A stretch of DNA of 64,000 nucleotides from Holophagaceae bacterium (GTDB taxonomy: Bacteria; Acidobacteriota; Holophagae; Holophagales; Holophagaceae), in NCBI GenBank assembly GCA_025361205.1, contig JANYAS010000162.1, positions 1 to 64,000 on the forward strand, read 5' to 3'. Below, piece by piece: positions 7,820 through 49,602 of the stretch. Numbering within the stretch: position 1 is the first letter of the stretch; every line of letters starts with the position of its first letter. A model generated the notes under the pieces. The model saw only the letters and a program-made list of their open reading frames with translations. It was not told where the DNA came from and did not search any database. The translations under genes were made by a program, and so were the position numbers.

Positions 7820-8875
7820 TCAGATCGCTCCCACGATTACATCGACGATGACGGGGCGGTGATCGGAGGCCTTGCCGGTTCCGGTCCAGCAGCGCTGGGC
7901 TTGCAAGTGCCGACTCAGCATGATGTGATCGATCCGCATCCACGAAAGATCCAGCCATGGCATGCGGGCACTCAGCAAGAAGTGGCCGTAGGTGTAGCCG
8001 TAGCCCCTTCCCCCCTCCGTGAAGGCATCGTGAAGGCCCGCGGTGCGCAACATGCGGCAGGCCAGGGATGCATCAGGTGAGTTCAAGTCGCCGGCGACGA
8101 TGACGGCGCCTGGTTCCTGCCTCACGAAGTCCGATAAGGATTGGGCCTGGAGAAGGCGGACTTCGACGTTCTCCTGCAGCCTCTGGATGGCCTCGGGCAG
8201 GAGCCGGGGCTGTTTCCGGGCCGCCCGGAAGGCATTGAGACCCTCCCGCGGCGTCATGAAATGCGCGCTGTACAAGGTGATCACCGAATTCCCGACCTGC
8301 ACCTGGGTCCTCAGGCAAGGCCATTTCCCCCCGTTGTAGGGAATCCAAACCTCCCGGCCCGGGCCCAGGGGGAGCCTGCTGGCGATGACGTATTGGTTGA
8401 AGGAACGGACGTTCCATCCAGTGAAGCTGGCGCTGAGGGGACCCTTTAACACCTGGTCTGCCTCCTGCAGCAGCACCACATCCGGCCGGTATAGGCCTAT
8501 GTCTTGCATCAGGGCATGGATATCACGCTGGCCCTGTTTCACATTGCAGGTCATGACCCTGATCAAGGTGCCTGGCGAGCCAGAGATGGGTTGGGTGTTG
8601 AGCGGCCAGCGGAAACCCATGATGGGCCCCAGGACCCAGACCAGCAGGACCCCCAGCGCCCAGAGCCACCTTGGCGCGTAACGAAGGGACAGGAGGGCCA
8701 GGGGAACGATGGGGATCAGCCACAAGGCCTGGGGCAGGTACAGATTGAAAGCCCCCAGCCACCAGCGATCCGCACCCAGCCAGTTCAGGATCGTCAACCC
8801 GGCCAGCAGCAGCCCATAAACGGCGAAGAGGATGACCAACCAGCGCGGGGCCTGTTCTTTTTGGACATTTGTCAT
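7820..8875 (-). CDS. Endonuclease/exonuclease/phosphatase family membrane protein
   Basis: N-terminal TM helices, then VMTCNVKQGQRDIHALMQDIGLYRPDVVLLQEAD, VIVAGDLNSPDASL, RIDHIMLSRHL, SDHRPVIVDV. Confidence 0.88.
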   Translation of the reverse strand: MTNVQKEQAPRWLVILFAVYGLLLAGLTILNWLGADRWWLGAFNLYLPQALWLIPIVPLALLSLRYAPRWLWALGVLLVWVLGPIMGFRWPLNTQPISGSPGTLIRVMTCNVKQGQRDIHALMQDIGLYRPDVVLLQEADQVLKGPLSASFTGWNVRSFNQYVIASRLPLGPGREVWIPYNGGKWPCLRTQVQVGNSVITLYSAHFMTPREGLNAFRAARKQPRLLPEAIQRLQENVEVRLLQAQSLSDFVRQEPGAVIVAGDLNSPDASLACRMLRTAGLHDAFTEGGRGYGYTYGHFLLSARMPWLDLSWMRIDHIMLSRHLQAQRCWTGTGKASDHRPVIVDVIVGAI

Positions 8876-9018
8876 ACTCGGGAGCACCTTTCCAGTCTGC
8901 GTGGACGACTCAGCCTCTTTTCGCGACCAATGGAATTTGAATCGGTTGGTCACTTTGAATCCCCTGGTCGAATCATTCAATCATCCCAGGTGGATTTGGC
9001 TCCTCCCAGAAAAAACGG

Positions 9019-9310
9019 TTTGGTTACCAACGAAACGCAGCCCGATCTCACTCAAGCCCAGCCGGTAAAAGCATGTAACCGCGAAATGGCGCGAAACGCA
9101 GCGGGGAGGGGCCGCCAGGGCCTACGGCCCCCAGCCGCGCTTCGCGTGGCTGGCCACACATGGGGCCGGCCTGCCGACTCCCAGAAAGTCGCCAGGACAG
9201 CCCCGTGTGTGGAGGCGGAAGGATGTCCGATCGCCTTTCGCCCGCCCGCAGGGCGATTCGCGTCCTTTCGCGGTTCAAGGTTTTCAGGCTGAGTCTGATT
9301 GGTAACCAGG
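9019..9310. repeat. Hairpin element A: MITE-like repeat with iterated CGCGAAA units
   Basis: TIRs TGGTTACCAA (9021-9030)/TTGGTAACCA (9299-9308); inner arms 9077-9099/9253-9275; AAAAACGG direct repeats at 9011-9018 and 9311-9318. Confidence 0.65.
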
Positions 9311-9434
9311 AAAAACGGATGGATGCCCTCTTCGACCTGAGGGAAGCCTTCGGATGGGTGTGGTCGTCGAACGAGACCTCTTGATGCGGGAGCGAAAAAC
9401 GAGATGATAGGGTGCATCCCCAAGAGGCCCAGCC

Positions 9435-10085
9435 ATGAAGCGATTCCCCACCTCGTTTTTCCTCGCAATGGTGATTGCGTTCGCAGCCAGCGCCCAACAA
9501 CCCGCGGGGCCTCCCCGCATCCCCCCGAGCCCGCATGGGTCAGCAGCGACTCAGGTGGGTGGGAAATGGGTGGAGGAAAAGCCGGGGACAGACGCCAAGT
9601 ACCGGGATGGGAAGTGGATCACTGTTGAGTACAGCCGACCCGTCCTCAAGGGCCGAACGGACGTGTTTGGCAAGGGCGCCGCCGCCTACGGGAAGACGGT
9701 CAACGCCGGTGCTCCGGTATGGCGAGCCGGGGCAAACGCAACCACCCGGCTGAAGACGGAGGTCCCGCTGCTGCTGGCGGGCAAAACCATTCCCGTGGGC
9801 GAGTACAGCATCTTTATCGAACTGAAAGAAACCTCCTGGACCTTCATCCTTTCGACTCAGACGGCGCTCGTAAAATACGACCCAAAGGACAAGTCCGGCA
9901 CCTGGGGATCTGACAATTACGATCCCAAATTCGACCTGGTGCGCGTACCGATGAAACGCGCACAACAGAGCCTCTCCTTCGACGAACTGACGTGGACCTT
10001 CGTGGACATGACCCAGCAGGGAGGCACTCTTGCCCTCTGGTGGGGAAAGGATCTGGCCACCGTGGCGTTCAAGGTCGCCCTCTGA
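9435..10085 (+). CDS. DUF2911 domain-containing secreted protein
   Basis: Signal peptide, then VEYSRPVLKGRTDVFG, GAPVWRAGANATTRLKTEVPLLLAGKTIPVGEYSIFIEL. Confidence 0.8.
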   Translation: MKRFPTSFFLAMVIAFAASAQQPAGPPRIPPSPHGSAATQVGGKWVEEKPGTDAKYRDGKWITVEYSRPVLKGRTDVFGKGAAAYGKTVNAGAPVWRAGANATTRLKTEVPLLLAGKTIPVGEYSIFIELKETSWTFILSTQTALVKYDPKDKSGTWGSDNYDPKFDLVRVPMKRAQQSLSFDELTWTFVDMTQQGGTLALWWGKDLATVAFKVAL

Positions 10086-49382: not shown

Positions 49383-49452
49383 GGGGCCTCCTGGGTGGGG
49401 AAACCGATCCTATAGCCATTTGCTTCTGCCGACCAGACTCAGCTTGAAACAG

Positions 49453-49577
49453 GGAACCGCGAAAATCGCGAAACGCCCTTAGGGCGCGCGAAAGCCGACT
49501 GGGGATGCTCCCGCCTTCATAGAAAGGGCAAACCGCCCTTAATTATTTCGTCTTCTTTCGCGTCTTTTCGCGGTTCC
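49453..49577. repeat. Hairpin element B: iterated CGCGAAA units
   Basis: GGAACCGCGAAAATCGCGAAA ... TTTCGCGTCTTTTCGCGGTTCC; extra inner units and cgccctta/taagggcg-type pairing. Confidence 0.8.
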
Positions 49578-49602
49578 ATGATTTGAAAAGGTTGCAAGCC
49601 CC

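Follow-up and report, generated by a model that had tools for sequence, protein, structure and literature searches.

The window analysed here, a stretch of 64,000 nucleotides from a Holophagaceae bacterium, contains an intergenic element of 292 bp (Element A, 9019-9310) between a gene of the endonuclease/exonuclease/phosphatase family on the minus strand (PF03372, 7820-8980) and a DUF2911 gene on the plus strand (PF11138, 9435-10085). A previous sequence-only reading had placed a MITE of about 290 bp between divergent genes at this site, and both the setting and all the strings and coordinates it claimed were found in the sequence where it gave them. Element A has imperfect terminal inverted repeats (TTTGGTTACCAA.../CCTGGTTACCAA...) that are abutted exactly by the octamer AAAAACGG, present at 9011-9018 on the left and at 9311-9318 on the right. 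The left terminal repeat, TTTGGTTACCAACGAAACGCAGCCCGA, occupies 9019-9045 and has its outer CC mutated to TT, and the right one (...TGATTGGTAACCAGG) occupies 9284-9310; over 25 nt they are 80% complementary, including a perfect stretch of 10 nt. The pairing of TGGTTACCAA (9021-9030) with TTGGTAACCA (9299-9308) that had been proposed as the terminal repeat does exist, but each true end lies another 2 bp outwards. These outermost two bases are unequal, being TT at the left and GG at the right, which read inwards is CC, the family form.

The element is shorter than 500 bp and carries no transposase gene, and the open reading frames that overlap it are merely mechanical. Its interior holds two inverted arms of tandem units, AACCGCGAAATGGCGCGAAACGC at 9077-9099 and GCGATTCGCGTCCTTTCGCGGTT at 9253-9275, both resembling the arms that flank GxxExxY genes, as well as a hairpin CCAGCCGCG-CTTCG-CGTGGCTGG at 9131-9153 and a long hairpin CCACACATGGGG...CCCCGTGTGTGG at 9154-9212; the inner arms and the further pair, which falls within the long hairpin, had already been recognised. 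The location had led to the suggestion that Element A could affect both promoters; a sigma-70 scan of 8860-9460 gave no promoter-like site, and the two terminator-like matches on the minus strand of this interval are near the shuffled expectation (2 vs 0.8, sd 0.8).

Copies, duplicated flanks and empty sites

The genome of origin (3.13 Mb in 190 contigs) has 13 places matching Element A. One of them is a second full copy, 93% identical (C166:19461-19760) and flanked by a perfect 8/8 duplication of its own, TCGTATTA, and the others are partial or diverged. Matches, some of them short, also occur in 18 of 36 other genomes of the same genus; the 23 genomes from outside the genus had none, and the viral contigs and plasmids searched gave no match to the element or its ends. 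With up to 3 mismatches allowed, 18 of 47 congeners contain the ends CCTGGTTATCGGCC(TGACTCAGCC), and the reversed control of the CCTGGTTATCGGCC pattern had no match. The search for other copies with these termini, which had been suggested as a check, thus returned the full copy on C166 as well as many copies in congeners.

We found that the length of the duplication is a property of the family. End pairs with at most 5 mismatches in total and 180-420 bp apart were taken from all fetched loci, the flanks not being used in the selection. This gave 25 pairs, some of them obviously due to chance, whose mean flank identity was 0.575 at length 8 vs 0.25-0.34 at lengths 4-7 and 9-12, with perfect 8/8 flanks in six of the pairs; in the control, mismatched left and right flanks shared 2.36 of 8 positions. 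Two additional 8/8 cases, outside the 25 pairs because their ends deviate too far from the pattern, are the window copy and the one on C166. The octamers duplicated at 13 sites, picked as good examples, are 62% A+T. The earlier interpretation of AAAAACGG as a target-site duplication is therefore upheld by the family, whose flanks agree solely at length 8.

The sequence-only reading had also expected an orthologous site without the insert and with a single octamer. The joined-flank search for such sites took in the first 8 of 15 sites, the eighth nearly whole, and the expectation was borne out for other copies of the family. The copy in congener G007 is flanked by TCGGACTA twice, and the orthologous site in G024, with 95% flank identity and no insert, reads AATCGGACTATTTCTTCG, with TCGGACTA only once. 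For the copy in G063, the corresponding site in G013 also lacks the insert; the octamer there has diverged, and thus this site shows the absence of the insert and the single octamer only weakly. For the window copy no empty ortholog of its own site was found, and the two closest DUF2911 homologues carry other upstream sequence.

Other repeats accompany the family. The window contains a decayed relative of it at 49434-49583 (minus strand), which has lost its ends and retains the arms AACCGCGAAAA / TTTTCGCGGTT, that is, inverted CCGCGAAA arms. A second dispersed repeat (CACCAAGGCACCAAGG...CTTGGTGTCTTGGTGG), with 91-94% identity, occurs on contigs C166, C183, C12, C95 and C185 of the same genome and adjoins the MITE copy on C166. 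A preference for insertion into the loops of other inverted-arm elements was also considered, and is not a rule, because just 4 of 19 insertions exceeded the 95% control, one of them being coding.

IS1595-family elements with the same ends

A 14-mer search for the ends over the 47 genomes gave, among the matches listed, mostly chance hits, and its repetition in the five copy-rich genomes yielded the insertion sequences. In these five genomes two end pairs lie more than 1 kb apart, and both are full IS1595-family elements of congener G003. One spans 1765 bp (C114:36114-37878), with a perfect terminal inverted repeat of 32 nt and AAAAGCTT on each side (8/8), and the other 1111 bp (C44:11105-12215), with TAGTTCTT on each side (8/8). 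Their transposases, 56% identical to each other, belong to the IS1595 family (NCBIfam NF033547, E about 1e-58; PF12762 and PF12760) and share the zinc ribbon and DDE_Tnp_IS1595 domains with it. The transposase with matching terminal repeats that was to be looked for thus turned up in a congener, where two complete elements have these ends and perfect 8-bp duplications. Pieces of transposase of the IS1595 kind also lie beside CCTGGTTATCGGCC-type ends in G016 and on another G003 contig. At two places, L319/L425 (G003:C177) and L333 (G016:C97), such pieces are found close to CCTGATTATCGGCC ends, and what looks like a passenger ORF lies between them. In the genome of origin, no IS1595 transposase was found in the sampled part, which comprised about 0.70 Mb plus the window (~24% of the 3.13 Mb).

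Barring chance-level short matches, only the first 14-28 nt of the MITEs are similar to these insertion sequences. By definition, a type II MITE shares just the ends with its insertion sequence (PMC10969869), and the Element A family is therefore of this type. IS1595-family elements yield AT-rich 8-bp direct repeats, a feature that insertion sequences such as ISApl4 of the IS1016 group have in common with the Element A family (PMC12561309). Unlike ISApl4, Element A lacks a transposase and has ends of the CCTGGTTATCGGCC type, those of ISApl4 being GGGGCTGTACTAGA (PMC12561309). Taking together the sequence, the copies, the family-wide duplication and the comparison of ends, we are highly confident that Element A is a gene-free type II MITE with IS1595-type terminal inverted repeats, inserted intergenically with an 8-bp duplication. 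Its mobilisation in trans by a transposase of the IS1595 family is likely, judging from the shared ends: the DDE transposase would bind the ends of Element A and move it into an intergenic site, duplicating the 8 bp AAAAACGG. The ends of the window copy match CCTGGTTATCGGCC at 8/14 and 10/14 positions, and because of this drift the copy is probably no longer mobile.

Elements of this kind have been described in other bacteria. The Chunjie MITE of Geobacter uraniireducens resembles Element A, on the basis of its description, in its size of 178-235 bp, its intergenic location, its dozens of copies along with many truncated ones, its terminal inverted repeats and its direct repeats, and differs from it in belonging to another host phylum (PMC10969869). 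QMITE2 of Coxiella burnetii is likewise similar, with terminal inverted repeats of 23-29 bp, direct repeats of 7-9 bp, a highly stable predicted hairpin and decayed copies devoid of ends; it appears to differ in that the available portions of its descriptions make no mention of tandem-unit inner arms like those of Element A (PMC5896051, PMC10969869). We found no description of the Element A family in open-access PubMed Central papers, ISfinder and subscription papers being outside the scope of the search. The MITE family appears to be new, and the kind of element is known. The unannotated repeat is hence defined as a transposon family, its ends and target duplication known and its mobiliser likely; this aids annotation and explains intergenic differences among species of the genus.

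Inner arms and the genes that carry similar ones

The inner arms relate Element A to another group of loci. The genome of origin has six GxxExxY genes (PF13366), most of them enclosed by inverted arms made up of tandem 7-10-bp units; at one of them (L183) the repeats are only downstream of the gene. For 71 GxxExxY genes, the majority of them from the genus, the best inverted match between upstream and downstream sequence had a median score of 24.2 vs 9.8 for mismatched pairs. The arm unit varies from locus to locus, and the left and right arms agree (L179-L184 in the genome of origin and about 65 other loci). S23p/23S_rRNA_IVP genes (PF05635; L200-L217) also lie between inverted arms of tandem 7-bp units (median 20.1 vs 9.1). 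On plasmids of other phyla, such arms were clear around one of five GxxExxY genes.

One alternative to transposition by an IS1595-family enzyme is that Element A owes its spread to the GxxExxY nuclease (PDDEXK_3), the genes of which are enclosed by such similar arms. The six genes in the same genome would fit this idea, as would the comparison of 14 MITEs, which carry inner arms of at least four sequence types within the same outer ends: in 14/14 at least one of the two arms matches some GxxExxY arm better than a crude 2-mer shuffle does, the other-side arm of one MITE (L347) falling below its control. However, these MITEs were hand-chosen and their arms are of few types, so the match denotes resemblance and not descent. 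Moreover, the GxxExxY units lack CCTGGTTATCGGCC ends beyond poor partial matches, whereas IS1595 transposase genes have them, and we regard the spread by GxxExxY as highly improbable. A GxxExxY gene directly within CCTGG ends was also sought, and in 72 genes the search gave nothing better than poor partial matches.

The Coxiella 23S rRNA intervening sequence, which has tandem heptamers (GACAGAT) before the S23p ORF, at its stem, resembles the tandem-unit arms around the GxxExxY and S23p genes of this genus (PMC4990558). Element A differs from it in having no ORF, in its IS1595-type ends and in its position between protein genes. It is possible, and we suggest it only tentatively, that the MITE family has repeatedly taken up as its interior the type of arms seen at GxxExxY and S23p genes. 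These genes and the non-coding hairpins would then be the cargo of a single widespread class of selfish, stem-forming modules, similar in design to the 23S rRNA intervening sequences, which swap arms with transposons and nest inside them. The GxxExxY name occurs in only two papers of the open-access literature searched, in at least one of them in passing, and among PubMed Central papers of this kind we found no account of the arm context of these genes or of a link between MITE and GxxExxY arms. The common inner arms provide a testable handle on the function of the GxxExxY protein.

Two GxxExxY loci deserve mention on their own. L179 (G000, the genome of origin) and L252 (G023), both situated between a thiolase-like gene and the one after it, are seemingly the same locus with different arm sequences, the left and right arms agreeing in each; such differing yet pairing arms would fit selection for pairing. 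At L139 (G038) a putative tmRNA gene, judged by the look of the sequence, closely follows a GxxExxY gene.

The folded interior

Folded as single-stranded DNA or RNA, Element A is predicted to be markedly stable (z = -8.44 and -8.37; none of 200 shuffles as stable). This stability, the 13 places in the genome of origin and the agreement of flanks at 8 bp alone imply that Element A is more than a chance arrangement. In a consensus structure of 21 copies, 95.9% of cells pair, and double-sided changes occur in 18 pairs vs 9.8 (sd 1.6) after shuffling and 0-7 with the partner slid by 1-3 columns; both controls flatter the structure, since it was derived from the same alignment and the copies are related, and their shared ancestry inflates the covariation counts. 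The covariation is most convincing between columns 164-178 and 208-222, which form the long hairpin, and at 182-186/200-204, and the hairpin with the CTTCG loop also shows compensatory changes in relatives. On this modelling, the interior is a multi-branched hairpin fold kept by compensatory changes. Its role is most likely, we infer, either tolerance as a stable stem-loop or that of a module common to tandem-arm elements which also carry GxxExxY genes.

Such properties recall two further explanations. Element A is intergenic, palindromic, dispersed and hairpin-forming, as a REP/REPIN-type palindrome mobilised by a RAYT (Y1) transposase would be, but its sharp 8-bp duplication contradicts this origin, as RAYT/REP elements are not known to make one. 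Furthermore, the genome of origin had no match to PF01797 (Y1_Tnp), which is present in 3 of 24 same-genus genomes searched, and a REP/REPIN origin is thus very improbable. Least probable of all, to the point of being nearly negligible, is a structured non-coding RNA or regulatory element held by selection, with coincidental terminal repeats and flanking octamer: the strong fold, the compensatory changes and the lack of any Rfam match in the window would suit it, but the copies stand at unrelated loci between differing perfect octamers, and the existence of empty orthologous sites contradicts it as the sole explanation.

Within the reading of Element A as a type II MITE, some copies may have an RNA role alongside mobility. 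The folded interior is almost missing from one end pair of 89 bp in another congener (L423, G026:C135:2671-2759), which has mismatched flanks and is perhaps a minimal derivative.
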